From Lagopus muta (Eukaryota; Chordata; Aves; Galliformes; Phasianidae), in assembly GCF_023343835.1 (NCBI RefSeq), contig NC_064444.1:17273219-17337218 (forward strand): 64,000 nucleotides of DNA. The letters run 5' to 3'. The position numbers were made by a program, and so were the translations under genes. Below are positions 1,555 to 52,587 of the stretch, one piece after another (positions within the stretch are counted from its first letter, which is position 1; each line of letters begins with the position of its first letter). The notes under the pieces were generated by a model. It worked only from the letters and a program-made list of their open reading frames with translations. It had not been told where the DNA came from and did no database searches.

Positions 1555-1575
1555 TTCACTAGAAATTCATCGGAA
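1555..1575 (+). promoter_or_regulatory. two adjacent STAT6-type TTC(N4)GAA motifs
   Basis: TTCACTAGAA occupies 1555-1564 and TTCATCGGAA occupies 1566-1575, with one base between them. Both match the TTC-N4-GAA palindrome preferred by STAT6. They lie about 30-50 bp upstream of a TATA-like box and 123-143 bp upstream of the chemokine start codon. Mammalian CCL17 is an IL-4/STAT6-induced gene with paired STAT6 sites in its proximal promoter, so the arrangement fits the gene identification. Binding is inferred, not shown. Confidence 0.55.
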
Positions 1576-1603: not shown

Positions 1604-1613
1604 AAAATAAATT
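1604..1613 (+). promoter_or_regulatory. TATA-like box of chemokine gene
   Basis: AAAATAAATT sits about 85-94 bp before the ATG at 1698. That would place transcription start near 1635-1645 and give a 5' UTR of about 55-60 nt, usual for CC chemokines. The core is not a perfect TATAAA. Confidence 0.45.
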
Positions 1614-1697
1614 GCAGCAGCTCCCTGCCGAGATAACAGAGCTCCTTAGGAGAGGCACAGCAGCACTGCAGTAAGGAAGAGCCCACGTACAGCTGCA

Positions 1698-1764
1698 ATG
1701 CTCAGCACAAAGCCTCTCCTGCTGCTCCTGCTGCTCCTCAGCATCTCCCAGCACAGCTCCACAG
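1698..1764 (+). CDS. CCL17: CC chemokine exon 1 (signal peptide)
   Basis: This exon encodes 22 full codons plus the first base of an alanine codon. The residues begin 'MLSTKP', followed by a run of eight leucines and 'SISQHSST', a typical cleavable secretion signal ending near the intron. The ATG at 1698 is the only one placed so that the signal peptide reads directly into the GTGAGG donor at 1765. The context 'ctgcaATGc' is moderate. Confidence 0.85.
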
Positions 1765-2051: not shown

Positions 2052-2163
2052 CCCCATATGCACCTTCAGAATGCTGTTTCACACTCGCAAAAGCTGCACT
2101 CCGGTTCGAAGTGCTGAAGAATTTCTATGAGACTTCCAGTGACTGTCTTCTGAAAGCAATTGT
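2052..2163 (+). CDS. CCL17: CC chemokine exon 2 (CC motif and first beta strands)
   Basis: The acceptor 'ctcttctccag' precedes 2052 and a GTAAGT donor follows 2163. The exon completes the alanine codon, then reads 'PYAPSECCFTLAKAALRF', 'EVLKNFYETSSDC' and 'LLKAI', ending with two bases of a valine codon. It carries the paired cysteines and the third cysteine. A 112-nt core exon is the standard CC chemokine size. Confidence 0.87.
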
Positions 2164-2547: not shown

Positions 2548-2653
2548 GTTTGAGACAAAGGGCGGGATCAAGGTCTGTGCAAAACCAAACGCACCTTGGG
2601 TGAAGAAAGCAATTAAGAATCTTCAGAAAAAGAAGGAACCTCAAGCTGTGTGA
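2548..2653 (+). CDS. CCL17: CC chemokine exon 3 (C-terminal helix) and stop
   Basis: The acceptor 'gttttggcag' precedes 2548. The exon finishes the valine codon and encodes 'FETKGGIKVCAKPNAPWV' followed by a lysine-rich helix and tail, with a TGA stop at 2651-2653. The fourth conserved cysteine is in 'KVCAK' and the conserved tryptophan in 'PWVKK'. The basic C-terminus is of the kind that binds glycosaminoglycans. Confidence 0.87.
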
Positions 2654-3285: not shown

Positions 3286-3330
3286 CTCTCCTACTTCTAC
3301 TCAAGTCTGTGCAAGGCCTCCCAGTGTGCA

Positions 3331-3402
3331 GCCATGATTCTATAGTGGTGAGCAGTCTGTGTTACAGCCACAGCAACCTCGGTCTGAATCTGAGTCACAG
3401 CA
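3331..3402 (+). pseudogene. tRNA-His-derived pseudogene
   Basis: These 72 bases align end to end with the intact tRNA-His at 5973-6044, and the homology continues into both flanks. The acceptor arms no longer pair (GCCATGA against TCACAGC). The B box is altered to GGTCTGAATC. The D arm is changed and the anticodon loop reads TTACAGC instead of TTGTGGC. The anticodon stem still pairs (CTGTG/CACAG). Several differences are CpG-to-TpG/CpA type, as expected of methylated, unselected DNA. Confidence 0.75.
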
Positions 3403-3514
3403 GTGGTTTTGCAGCGATCAGGCTGTGCACAGACAGCACTTTGCAAATGCAGAGGGGGCAGCTGCAGGGAACGGAGGCTTCTGTACCCACAGGGTGGTCG
3501 TTGGAGATGGCAGT

Positions 3515-4520: not shown

Positions 4521-4602
4521 GGAAGCAGCTTATGGCATGCACTGCCTGCCCAGTGGGTTCCCCAGCAGCCCACTGCTGACCTGTGTCTGTGTATTTCCCC
4601 AG

Positions 4603-4710
4603 ATTGGAGACCACCTTCACGCCTGAGGAGCAGCGTGAGATGCTGGAGCTCCACATCCACACAGGAGCTGCAGCTCTATGGGGAGCGTGTGGCAGGGAGC
4701 AGCCATCCCA
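4603..4710 (+). pseudogene. exon-like block, copy A
   Basis: The acceptor-like 'gtatttccccag' precedes 4603 and the donor-like 'gtgagctgtg' begins at 4711. The frame begins 'LETTFTPEEQREMLELHI', then shifts relative to copy B, consistent with a small insertion/deletion. It is a broken copy of the block at 5139-5249. Confidence 0.35.
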
Positions 4711-5138
4711 GTGAGCTGTGCTGGGGCAGGACAGGAGCAGGGCAGCCTTGGAGACCAAGCGAGAAGCCTCAAACTCCTGCACCTGGGCCAACACGGCTCA
4801 AAGAACAGGGCTGGCACTGAGCATGCGCCATGGACAGAGCGTCACCCTGACAGCCTCCATCAGAATGCCTGACTGGGAAAGGAGGCTGATCATCTGGATG
4901 CTGGCATCTGGCCTGCAGGCCACATTCTGCAGTCAAAAATCAAGGCCATGATGATGATCCCCATCTCCTTCCCCTGCATTAGCCCCAGGGAAGCAGAAGG
5001 GCAAGGCAGCGGAGGGACCATGGACTCCCGTTGCATCAACAAGGATGGGAGGCCACATAGTGATTCTGGGGCACGCACTGCCTGCCCAGAGCACTCCTTG
5101 AGAGCGCACAGCCAACCTGTGCCTGTGTACTTACCCAG

Positions 5139-5249
5139 CCAGGATAGCACCTTCATGCTGGAGGAGCAGCGTGAGATGCTGGAGCTCCACATCCGTGCCA
5201 TGAAGCTGCGGTGCCATGGGGAGCACCTTGGCACGGAGCGGCCATCCTG
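5139..5249 (+). CDS. putative coiled-coil exon, copy B, gene unknown
   Basis: The exon-like block lies between 'cttacccag' and a GTGAGC donor. It reads 'QDSTFMLEEQREMLELHI' then 'RAMKLRCHGEHLGTERPS', open throughout and ending with two bases of a codon. The next block at 5403 starts with the one base needed to keep frame. The charged Leu/Glu-rich composition suggests an alpha-helical coiled coil. I do not recognise the family, and it may be a dead gene. Confidence 0.35.
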
Positions 5250-5402
5250 GTGAGCTGTGCTGGGGCAGGACAGGAGCAGGACAGCCTTGGAGAGCAACTG
5301 ACAGGCCCAGAAGTCCAGCACCCAGACCAACATGGCCTGCACAGCAGTGTGTGCTCAGTGCCGTTGCTGTGGACAGGGCTTTGCTCCAACAGCCTCCATT
5401 AG

Positions 5403-5487
5403 GATGCTTGAATGGAAAAGGAAGCAGATCATCCAGGCGATGGAGGCTGGCTTGCAGGCCATGGCCCACAGTCTAAGTCCAGGGATG
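5403..5487 (+). CDS. putative coiled-coil exon 2, copy B, gene unknown
   Basis: After 'cctccattag' the frame reads 'MLEWKRKQIIQAMEAGLQ' and 'AMAHSLSPG'. It ends at a weak donor-like GTGACT. Copy A has the corresponding 'DWERRLIIWMLASGLQA' near 4872. Preservation of the helical pattern in both copies hints at former coding function. Confidence 0.3.
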
Positions 5488-5536
5488 TGACTGCAGTCCC
5501 CATCCCTCAGCACCTCCTTCCCCTGCATCACCCCCA

Positions 5537-5676
5537 GGGAAGCAGAAGGGCAAGGCAGCAGAGGGACCATGGACGCCCATCACATCTGCAAGGATGAGAA
5601 GATCCCGGAGAGATTCTGGGAGGGACAAAAGCATGGAGTCCAAGCAGATGGCTCCTACAACCCCAATAAGGAATAA
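5537..5676 (+). CDS. putative terminal exon with AATAAA, copy B, gene unknown
   Basis: After 'ctgcatcacccccag' the frame that follows from the previous block reads 'EAEGQGSRGTMDAHHICKD' and continues to a TAA at about 5674 that overlaps an AATAAA (5672-5677). Another frame is also open. The AATAAA with a downstream T-rich run suggests this was a 3' terminal exon. No product can be named. Confidence 0.28.
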
Positions 5677-5972: not shown

Positions 5973-6044
5973 GCTGTGATCGTATAGTGGTCAGTACTCT
6001 GCGTTGTGGCCGCAGCAACCTCGGTTCGAATCCGAGTCACAGCA
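5973..6044 (+). tRNA. tRNA-His (anticodon GTG)
   Basis: This is a complete nuclear tRNA. Acceptor arms GCTGTGA/TCACAGC pair fully. The anticodon arm is CTGCG-TTGTGGC-CGCAG with anticodon GTG, and the T arm is CTCGG-TTCGAAT-CCGAG. The B box GGTTCGAATCC is intact and the A-box region 'TATAGTGGTCAG' is close to normal. It has no intron and no encoded CCA, as is usual in eukaryotes. A TTTT run five bases downstream (6049-6052) can end Pol III transcription. Relative to the common vertebrate tRNA-His it has a C3-G70 to T3-A70 pair change, so pairing is kept. It probably decodes histidine CAC/CAU codons. Confidence 0.92.
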
Positions 6045-13327: not shown

Positions 13328-13590
13328 TTAAAGAGTGCTCTCTCCCTTCTGCACAAGAAGGCAGGCAGAGTGCTACCTGGAGGGAAGAAGACCATGCAGT
13401 TACCCCTGGAAGGCAGCAGGAGCTTTATTTCTTCTCTCCTGTGCTGAGATCTGGGTCTAGACACTCTGGGTTCACTGACTTTCATCCTCCAACCCCCATG
13501 TAGGCCCCCTCATCCTCACCTGCTGCAGAAATGGGGAACACCCAGAGCTCTATAAGGAAACCCACAATACCAGTCCTGGCCCAGGCTTAC

Positions 13591-13736
13591 CTGAAGCATC
13601 TTTTTGTGCACTGTATTCTTCCCATATTCTCTGCACAGCTGTTCACTCAGCATCTGCAGCTCCCGTCCAAACTGGATCATTCGCTCGGTGGCAGCGTGGT
13701 TCCCTCCGCAGAGCTGCCTCTGGGGACAGCTGTCTT
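13591..13736 (-). CDS. RANBP10: RANBP10 exon (start of CRA region)
   Basis: Between 'gcctttcttctag' and GTAAGC. It encodes '[18 protein letters not shown]', then '[15 protein letters not shown]' and '[15 protein letters not shown]'. Its last full codon (Gln) abuts the next exon in phase 0. Confidence 0.95.
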
Positions 13737-14573
13737 CTAGAAGAAAGGCAGGGGAGAAGAAAAAACTGTCTCATTCCCCACCACTGCTCACTGTGAGGCA
13801 TGCTGCCCTTCCTTAGCCATAACTCCTTCCTTCCCCTTCAGGAGCAGTTACATGCTATTCATCCAAGCAGAAGCTTTTTCTGAGTCCTGCACTACAACAG
13901 TGGGCTGTGGATTTTTCGTAGGGCAGCCCTGAACTCTGTTTAATGCTTGTGGACAACCAACACATCAAGTCCTCTGGTAAAACCACAGGAACCTGCGACT
14001 CCGGCTGTGTTACCCTTTCATGTGTGTAAGGTACTCCACACACCACAAAAAACCTGGTCTAACAAACTCTGGTCTCAGTCAGAGATACCAAAACACCACC
14101 AACTTTCCAATATTTGGTAAATATAAGACACCAGTAATTGGAGGAATTCCAGGTTTCAGAGGTAATGTAGTTGATTTATATCTCCCTCCGGGCTGAAGCA
14201 CCCACAAGCAAAATAGTCCTAGCTGATCAAAGTCCCTTTGTAGCTGGGAATCAGTCAGTCTTTCAGCTCAGTTCATTTCTTCAGGTGTTAGAAGTGCCTG
14301 GGCTGCTCTGTGCTGGAATTCACAGCCAGTGCTGAACAAACCTTTGACTCCTATTGCCTTCCCTGGCCCACAGTATCACCAGCACTACTGCACAACTATG
14401 AAAAGTCAAACCTAGACTCAGTTCTGAGACAGATTTATTTCCCTGGTGAAACTGGTATCTCGAGAACTTCATTCACCAGGACTGGGAAAGAAACCCAAAC
14501 AGTCCAACCACTACTTCAACTCTTGATCCCTGCTCTTTCTATCTCCCATTGCCTCTCCTGCTTGAGGCCCTAC

Positions 14574-28917: not shown

Positions 28918-28943
28918 AGTCTTCACCAGAAGTCTTCACCAGA
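28918..28943 (+). repeat. 13-bp perfect tandem duplication
   Basis: The unit AGTCTTCACCAGA occurs twice in direct succession. Confidence 0.9.
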
Positions 28944-29344
28944 AGTGCCAGAGCATCACACACAGTTTTGGCTAGTAAATAGTTACTTCAGAAAAGAAGT
29001 AAAATCACATTCCTAAAGAAACATCCTCAAATCTGAGCAACCCTTCAGGAGGGTTCCCAGAGAAGTCTTTTTTCCCACTTAGGGCTGCAGATCTCAACGT
29101 GTTGCAAAACATGTGGTCTAGATTCTGGGAAGCCACGTGCGTCACTTCTAGGCAACCATCCCCTAAAAATCAACAGACAGTGGGATGAAAGCAGAGGAAA
29201 ATTGAAAACCATTTTTCCAAAGAAGTTCTGTCTGCATCAGCACTAGGGCCTTCTGAATCTGCCTCATGGAACAGATTCTTCTTGAGACAGAGGAGGAGCA
29301 GCCCCATACTGCAGATCCAACTCTCTGCTGCTACAACATAGCCT

Positions 29345-50230: not shown

Positions 50231-52587
50231 TTAACTTCAAGACAATTTTGTTGACAGGCAGCAAACTGTTGGCTACAGAACATAATGCACAATATCAAGC
50301 AAGCTGCGAGAAGACAGGACTTTAATGCACACATGTACATCATGAGCTGATCTGATCCCATCAACTAACTGACCACAGCTTCCTCCTCCCTGGTCATCAA
50401 AGAGAATGAGTTATCCAGGAAAAAAACTTGTTCTTGTAGTTTCTACAGAACAATCCTGAGCTCTCAAAGAGTGCCATGATGACAACTCCTGCCAGGCATG
50501 CTGCCACAAGGACTTGGGCTCATGGTGTCCTGAACCTAGAGCTGACTTGAAGAAAAGCCACATGGAAGGCTCTGCTCTGATGTAGAGAGCTCAAGGATAA
50601 CAGAAAACACTGTGAGAAAGAGAAGAGGAAGCGCTGTGTTATCTCATTCATTGGGATCTCCATTGTATAGATTTCTTTCTCCTCTGAAGTCAAAGCCTTT
50701 TTAAAGATCACATTCTGCAGCTCATGGCTTACCTACTTCATCCTTTAGAACTCTTGAATGAAGACCGCATAACCTATAATGACTCCTTCCTGTGTTTTAT
50801 TGACAAATAACATGATTGTAGTATTAACTCATCAACGGAAGCCAAATCATCCTTTAAATGCAGACTGAAGCAGCCTGGCGTTTGGAAGCCTCTAAACATT
50901 CCTCCACAACGGACACATCTGCAAAGCAATTTATTTCTCTGCTGTGGCCCTACCTTCTCATAGCCCTTCATAAGAAATTCTCCTGAATCACCTCCTGCTC
51001 TTACAGACTCTCTGGCTCGCCTCCTGTACCTGATGTTTCGGGAGGGAAAAGCATTCTTTAACATCTGACTTTGAGCCAAACACCCAGCAAGTCCTTCTGC
51101 TCAACGCTACGGTGCTTTTACACTTCAAGTTTGTTCTTTGCATTTTTCTCATCTAATAAAACTTCAAGCTTTGCTTGAAGTATCCCCTATCCTCTCTCAG
51201 CCTCGTGTCTACTTGTGTCAACTGTATTCACTGTTCATTTTGAGTCTTTCCAATTAGTTCATACCCATGTATTCTGATCCTCCAAGACGAAGCCTGCTTG
51301 AAGAGCCTCCATGCCATCTGAAAGCATTTTACCTTTATGATTCCATCTTTTTAGTAACTTGTCTTAAAGAAGCCTCCTCAATTTTTACAGCATTCATTGG
51401 CTGTAGTTGTTTCTTTTGGAGGAACATGAAAGAATTTGGGTTTGGGGGCCTTTTTAAAGTGCCCCTCAAGGGACGTTAAACACAAGTATTTCTATAATGT
51501 TTTAAAAACCATTTTCTGCACTGCTCAGAGCATGAGTCAGAATTACATCCTCTCATGAGTTCCCTGACTAACCTCTGTGCATCAGTCACTCACAGCATCT
51601 AAAAATTTCGTCTCACACTCCTGTGTGACACACACATGATCCATAAAGAACAAACTATTCCAAAGCTGTGTTTACAGCCTGCCAGGCACAATATGGAAGG
51701 TTTCTCCCCAGAGCTGCAAGGTGATCTCTTGCTTTTCATCGCCCACCTTCTTCAAGCATTGACAGCTCATACAGCATGTTAGCACTTCCATTTTCTTATT
51801 CCTCCTGAGTCTGGAACCCCCTGCTGCTGCAATTTTCCTTGCTACAAAGCAAACTTTGCTGTTTCAGTCTCTTCCCAACTGTGCACACTTGCAGCGAGGA
51901 CCAGAGTCCACAGCTGAAGTTATTCTCCAGCTGTATATTGCTTCAGAGAGCAGTGAGAAGTGCCACCTCTGCCAATTGCTCAGGCCTCGATGAGTTGTGA
52001 TTCAGAGTTCAAGGTCCCAAATTGTCTGGATACACAGCAAAAGCACCATTAAGTCTGAACCATTAATAGCAGAGTGCTTGGCCCTGCCTCTGGCAGGCCT
52101 GAAAACACGCAGCAAGAACCTGTGCAGGAGCAGGCTGCTTGGTTGCACCAGCAGAATGATCCAGCTTCACTGGTATCACAGCTGCAGCACTCTGATAGTG
52201 TCTCTTCTGTCCCCAGCTCTTGCTGGATAATGACACAAAGCAGCTGTAGCACTGCACCGTCACCATTATGGCTGCAATACTGAGCCAAGCGTTGGAAGCT
52301 AAGAAATAGCAACCATCAAACTCAGATAAAATAGGTCATTTCCCACTTCACTTATCCTTGTGAACTTGTATTTTCTATGCAGTTCCATCCTCCCTCTTTT
52401 CAGCATTACAGCAAATCCCGCTCACATAAACAAGGGCAAAATGTGTACAACAGTGTCTTTCCATCTTAGGACAAAACAGCTTTAAATTAGGGCTGGAAGC
52501 TTGTATTTTTATAAGAAGTAAGTACTACAAACCCAGAAGTTCTAAATTTGAGATTACATTTCAATCTAGACACACAACATCACAGAC

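Follow-up and report, generated by a model that had tools for sequence, protein, structure and literature searches.

Twin TTC-N4-GAA palindromes upstream of a bird CCL17 gene as a possible STAT6-type promoter element

Introduction

The closest described systems are the CCL17 promoters of human and mouse. The published STAT6 consensus is TTC-N4-GAA (PMC1698493), and the N4 spacing is regarded as the STAT6 form, with other STATs taking N3 (PMC3564941). In human CCL17, two STAT6 sites are reported at -223/-213 and -187/-177, counted from the ATG (PMC5592199, citing Wirnsberger 2006), and an NF-kappaB motif lies upstream of them (PMC5592199). The 1.2 kb promoter of mouse Ccl17 is described as containing 11 putative STAT6 sites, five of which contribute in macrophages; the most needed are T1 (TTC-N3-GAA, -148/-140) and T2 (N4, -203/-194), both numbered from the transcription start (PMC1698493). 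Mouse site T6 (TTCAGCTGAA) is a perfect consensus match that gave no STAT6 binding in EMSA, so that a consensus match alone is insufficient for STAT6 binding; mutation of T6 nevertheless removed ~60% of the induction, and the authors suggested that the juxtaposed sites T5 and T6 may stabilise each other (PMC1698493).

Amongst birds, the relevant response data come from chicken fibroblasts infected with Toxoplasma, whose kinase ROP16 mimics IL-4/STAT6 signalling. CCL17 was the top ROP16-dependent gene in these cells. Its level was 21.2-fold higher with wild type than with the rop16 deletion at 5 h, and 399.6-fold higher with Type III than with Type II at 24 h; SOCS1, CISH, SOCS2, and SOCS3 rose alongside it (PMC3192797). 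This represents a strong IL-4-like response of the chicken gene labelled CCL17, a label that comes from the array and is tied to the locus considered here by name alone. Naming of chicken chemokines varies between reports (e.g., ah221 is CCL17 in PMC10720127 and CCL/MCP-L1 in PMC1082905). CCL17 is not named in the main text of a report on chicken marrow cultured with IL-4 (PMC9812659). Among the literature matches listed, none was a study of an avian CCL17 promoter or of CCL17 induction in birds by IL-4 itself, and those for the 10-mers TTCACTAGAA and TTCATCGGAA included none relevant by title.

Results and Discussion

Sequence and placement of the twin palindromes

The window, meaning the whole 64-kb stretch of DNA that was analysed, covers positions 17,273,219-17,337,218 of contig C15 in a bird genome of 1.027 Gb in 165 contigs. 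At window positions 1555-1575, TTCACTAGAA is followed by a single A and then by TTCATCGGAA, both exact TTC-N4-GAA palindromes whose starts are 11 bp apart (Table 1). This 21-mer is unique in the whole genome, and between -2899 and the ATG the two palindromes are the only perfect N4 sites; from -3132 to the ATG there are 0 perfect N3 sites. The twin ends 30 bases before a TATA-like AATAAA. A sequence-only reading of this DNA had placed two such motifs one base apart, directly upstream of a TATA-like box, and its letters and coordinates proved exact.

Table 1. Features of the chemokine locus, in window coordinates
Feature	Position	Strand	Sequence	Distance from ATG	Basis
Candidate STAT6-type site, palindrome 1 (TTC-N4-GAA)	1555..1564		TTCACTAGAA	-143 to -134	direct read and pattern scans
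Candidate STAT6-type site, palindrome 2 (TTC-N4-GAA)	1566..1575		TTCATCGGAA	-132 to -123	direct read and pattern scans
Putative TATA-like box of the chemokine gene	1606..1611	+	AATAAA		pattern scan
CCL17 coding exon 1 (signal peptide; ATG at 1698)	1698..1764	+			gene model
CCL17 coding exon 2	2052..2163	+			gene model
CCL17 coding exon 3 to stop	2548..2653	+			gene model; end read directly
Open frame with RANBP10 exon, downstream neighbour	13519..13770	-			PDB match

The spacer core YYRR is the form preferred by STAT6 in ChIP-seq motifs. Both bird palindromes score 2 of 4 on this measure, the first spacer base being A in each; their quality is thus middling, since 12 of the 29 N4 sites in the window score 3 or 4. 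For comparison, the mouse Ccl17 sites T2, T4, and T6 score 3, 1, and 0, respectively.

Several other readings of the promoter were tried and rejected. Simple patterns for heat-shock elements, NF-kappaB, AP-1, C/EBP, and the ISRE gave 0 matches within 1200-1760; by eye, the twin contains two plus-strand GAAA units (at 1562 and 1573), the spacing of which differs from that of the ISRE, GAAANNGAAA. Origin of the twin by tandem duplication was also rejected, the repeat search having returned no repeat of at least 12 bases there. Pattern scans placed an E-box (CACGTG, 1510-1515) and a GATA-like motif (AGATAA, 1631-1636) on either side of the twin.

The repressor BCL6 binds STAT-like palindromes, and an NFAT-like core, GGAAAA (1572-1577, pattern scan), overlaps palindrome 2. 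It could be argued from these overlaps that the twin serves mainly BCL6, or its second site NFAT or ETS factors, and so acts as a brake or relays a T-cell signal, with no IL-4 switch involved. The overlap is one of generic motifs only, however, and stricter NFAT, ETS, and BCL6-like patterns have 0 matches within 1200-1760, making such a role very improbable.

Identity of the chemokine gene

Joined together, the three coding exons in Table 1 give a CC chemokine of 94 aa (Pfam IL8, E 1.9e-16), the length of human CCL17, with the cysteine spacing CC-X22-C-X15-C (counted by eye on the translation). The same spacing, and a length equal to that of human CCL17, have been reported for chicken CCL17 (PMC1082905). 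A search confined to PDB sequences returned, in order, CCL14 (two forms), CCL13, an XCL1 ancestor, and CCL17 at 46 bits; since this ranking alone does not decide the identity, the ortholog call rests on position.

Just upstream of the window, locus L002 contains an exon (L002:4424-5584) whose chemokine end (Pfam IL8, E 2.2e-6) continues, on the same strand, into a long Ser/Thr/Pro-rich stalk and a membrane span. From this combination of chemokine end, stalk, and membrane span, the L002 gene is read as CX3CL1. Beyond it, on the opposite strand, locus L003 contains MARVEL-type exons, presumably PLLP-like, with a score under the curated cut-off. The order CX3CL1-CCL17 found here is that conserved in mammals. 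On the downstream side, the open frame in Table 1 has its best PDB match in Ran-binding protein 10, with an alignment that covers query residues 1-45 (E 3e-15), followed by RANBP9 (3.1e-13). In chicken, CX3CL1 and CCL17 adjoin on chromosome 11 with synteny reported as retained on one side only (PMC1082905), and the RANBP10 neighbour on the far side agrees with that report; the corresponding mouse locus is named MDC-Fractalkine-TARC (PMC1698493).

By its cysteine spacing, its length, and its place after CX3CL1, the predicted gene is the bird ortholog of CCL17. This was one of two possibilities raised by the sequence-only reading; the other, a lineage-specific duplicate, is disfavoured by the synteny. 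No stray bird CCL17 or relative of the gene was found in a genome-contig collection. Published chicken CCL17 primers (PMC12024107) align with window positions 1693-1712 and 2127-2147, with mismatches at 3/20 and 3/21 bases, and predict an amplicon of 168 bp, equal to the published size; going by the mismatches, the window is probably from a bird other than the chicken reference.

Between CX3CL1 and CCL17 lies a simple-repeat array of HPSI or WMDG units (L002:7963-8395). Between CCL17 and the next gene, a block at 4534-5599 is duplicated ~540 bp apart, with segments 71-88% identical. A tRNA-His (anticodon gtg) is predicted at 5973-6044, and an 83%-identical copy of its region, without a tRNA call, is located at 3325-3432.

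Comparison with the mammalian promoters

The premises that N4 is the STAT6 form and that mammalian CCL17 is controlled through STAT6 sites, both stated in the sequence-only reading, agree with the published consensus and spacing preference (PMC1698493, PMC3564941) and with the descriptions of two sites in human (PMC5592199) and several in mouse (PMC1698493). The bird gene resembles the human one, as described, in being its ortholog and in having two proximal-promoter sites within ~225 bp of the ATG. The differences are in spacing (36 bp from start to start in human versus 11 bp in the bird), in position (-223/-187 versus bird starts at -143/-132), and in the human NF-kappaB motif, for which the pattern scan of 1200-1760 in the bird gave no match. 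With mouse Ccl17, the bird promoter shares the clustering of STAT6-type sites, which in mouse are required for IL-4 induction (PMC1698493); it differs in having only two perfect N4 sites, compared with 11 sites including the N3 site T1 in the mouse description, and in that the bird sites are probably nearer to the transcription start.

In spacing and place (11 versus 36 bp), the bird twin thus does not match the mammalian CCL17 pair in the way that a homolog would. If both lineages use STAT6, the differences in spacing and position imply either turnover of the sites or an independent origin in each lineage. The response itself may be old and only its sites may have shifted. The fuller proposal, in which IL-4/STAT6 control of CCL17 predates the bird-mammal split, the sites have since moved, and STAT6 dimers share or compete for a compact twin, is somewhat unlikely.

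Chance expectation of the twin

The window contains 29 N4 sites (shuffle mean 22.2; at least 29 in 8 of 100 shuffles), among which three pairs have starts no more than 13 bp apart (1555/1566, 28922/28935, and 50967/50978). Random placement of 29 sites yields one or more pairs this close in 12% of trials and three or more in 0.03%. Under Markov models of orders 1-5, a 64-kb stretch is expected to contain between 0 and 0.032 one-base-gap twins, and the chance of any two N4 sites inside 300 bp is ~0.006. On the same contig, 24 loci (L002-L025) comprising 236,087 unmasked bases contain 88 single N4 sites and 0 pairs with starts up to 21 bp apart.

Across the whole genome, one-base-gap twins occur at 204 places versus 278 for a control in which the pattern is read backwards; since the twin pattern equals its reverse complement, hits on the two strands are the same places. 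The resulting frequency is ~1 per 5 Mb, or p ~1e-4 per given 500-bp promoter, and if 17,000 promoters of 500 bp are assumed, ~1.7 twins are expected among them by chance. Given these counts, the twin is rare and its promoter location noteworthy, yet the arrangement shows no enrichment genome-wide. The earlier statement that two such motifs are not expected in 21 bp by chance therefore holds locally and is overstated at the scale of the genome.

The other two close pairs in the window differ in form. A second one-base-gap TTC-N4-GAA twin lies at 50967-50987 (TTCATAAGAAATTCTCCTGAA), and the third pair is formed at 28920-28945, where TCTTCACCAGAAG stands twice in tandem (a 13-bp unit, by eye). 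Two twins inside one 64-kb window have a Poisson probability of ~8e-5, which is odd in itself.

These counts bear on the possibility that the twin arose by chance and does little, bird CCL17 being induced instead through weaker STAT sites, a distal enhancer, or NF-kappaB. The lower genome-wide count relative to the control, the ~1.7 twins in the assumed promoter set, and the second twin at 50967, which has no known reason to be there, are all compatible with this explanation, as is the mouse promoter, in which consensus sites have been reported as unbound and imperfect ones as active (PMC1698493). What weakens it is that a twin has a probability of ~1e-4 in a given promoter, and that the hit would need to coincide with a promoter for which a pair of STAT6 sites had been anticipated. 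A twin of chance origin is accordingly given a substantial, though clearly minority, share of the probability.

STAT genes of this genome

Whether STAT6 could act on the twin depends on its presence in birds, about which published statements have changed. The authors of the 2011 ROP16 study held that chicken had no identifiable STAT6 (PMC3192797); by 2024, chicken chromosome 34 was described as carrying STAT2 and STAT6 (PMC11677356), and STAT6 is also listed in chicken transcriptome papers (PMC12846443, PMC10720127). In the genome examined here, the STAT_bind profile gave four exon-sized matches on contigs C28 and C31 (E up to 0.001). Since STAT1, STAT3, and STAT4 were not recognised among these matches, the list of STAT genes is incomplete. 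The joined pieces of the gene at C31:2976773 score 446 bits against human STAT6 and 294 against STAT5B. Its DNA-binding part includes VVIVHGNQDNNAKAT, identical in human, and an SH2 domain is present, with a downstream motif, GRGYVSTAIKMTVE, which we take to be close to the activating-tyrosine segment of human STAT6. The STAT6_C profile gave 0 matches in the genome, but as it also recognised 0 of 14 controls, this result carries no information. Judged by these features of its predicted product, a STAT6 gene is present in this genome.

The STAT6 gene (L026, L030) lies at about 2975.3-2982.0 kb of C31, a 3.26-Mb contig, in GC-rich DNA (~0.66). A second STAT gene on this contig (L029), 89 kb from STAT6, appears STAT2-like by eye, and the C28 gene appears STAT5-like by eye.

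The twin could be a STAT element with STAT5 or STAT3, instead of STAT6, as its main factor. STAT5 was proposed in the ROP16 study because chicken STAT6 was then unidentified (PMC3192797), and the joint rise of CISH, SOCS2, and SOCS3 with CCL17 reported there, together with the STAT5-like gene on C28, would fit that proposal. However, STAT6 is found in this genome as well as on chicken chromosome 34 (PMC11677356), and the twin has the N4 spacing of STAT6, whereas the N3 form taken by other STATs (PMC3564941) has no perfect match over the upstream interval given above. A main role for STAT5 or STAT3 is consequently improbable.

A possible STAT6-type element as the best single explanation

The genome contains the two sites, an orthologous gene next to them, and a STAT6 gene that encodes an SH2 domain, an activating-tyrosine motif, and a stretch for DNA contact resembling the human one. 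The chicken system resembles this locus in that a gene of the same name is driven very strongly by an IL-4-like signal (PMC3192797), and differs in that its authors regarded STAT6 as unidentified in chicken. Because the twin lies in the expected location, STAT6 is present, and the chicken gene responds to a STAT-activating signal, a proximal STAT6-type element of the bird CCL17 promoter is the best single reading of the twin. It is plausible and unproven, and is placed a little short of an even chance; since the chicken array label is tied to the locus by name alone, this reading is held lower, and a chance origin higher, than they would otherwise be.

Under the STAT6-type reading, IL-4, IL-13, or a mimicking parasite kinase would lead to tyrosine-phosphorylated STAT6, a dimer of which would bind one or both palindromes, 30 bases ahead of the TATA-like box, and raise transcription of CCL17. 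STAT6 would then be the factor, and these two sites would carry the response, provided that the bird of the window behaves as chicken does. The one-base gap would be expected to give either alternate occupancy, with two chances of binding, or a tight cooperative complex. The footprint of a STAT dimer exceeds 10 bp, which makes joint occupancy of sites one base apart doubtful.

Conclusions

If the STAT6-type reading of the twin is correct, a central type 2 immune circuit, leading from IL-4 through STAT6 to CCL17, would be older than the split between birds and mammals, and the cis element responsible for the very strong ROP16 response of chicken cells would have been identified. A published puzzle, namely which of the STATs relays IL-4-like signals in birds, would also be brought closer to a solution.
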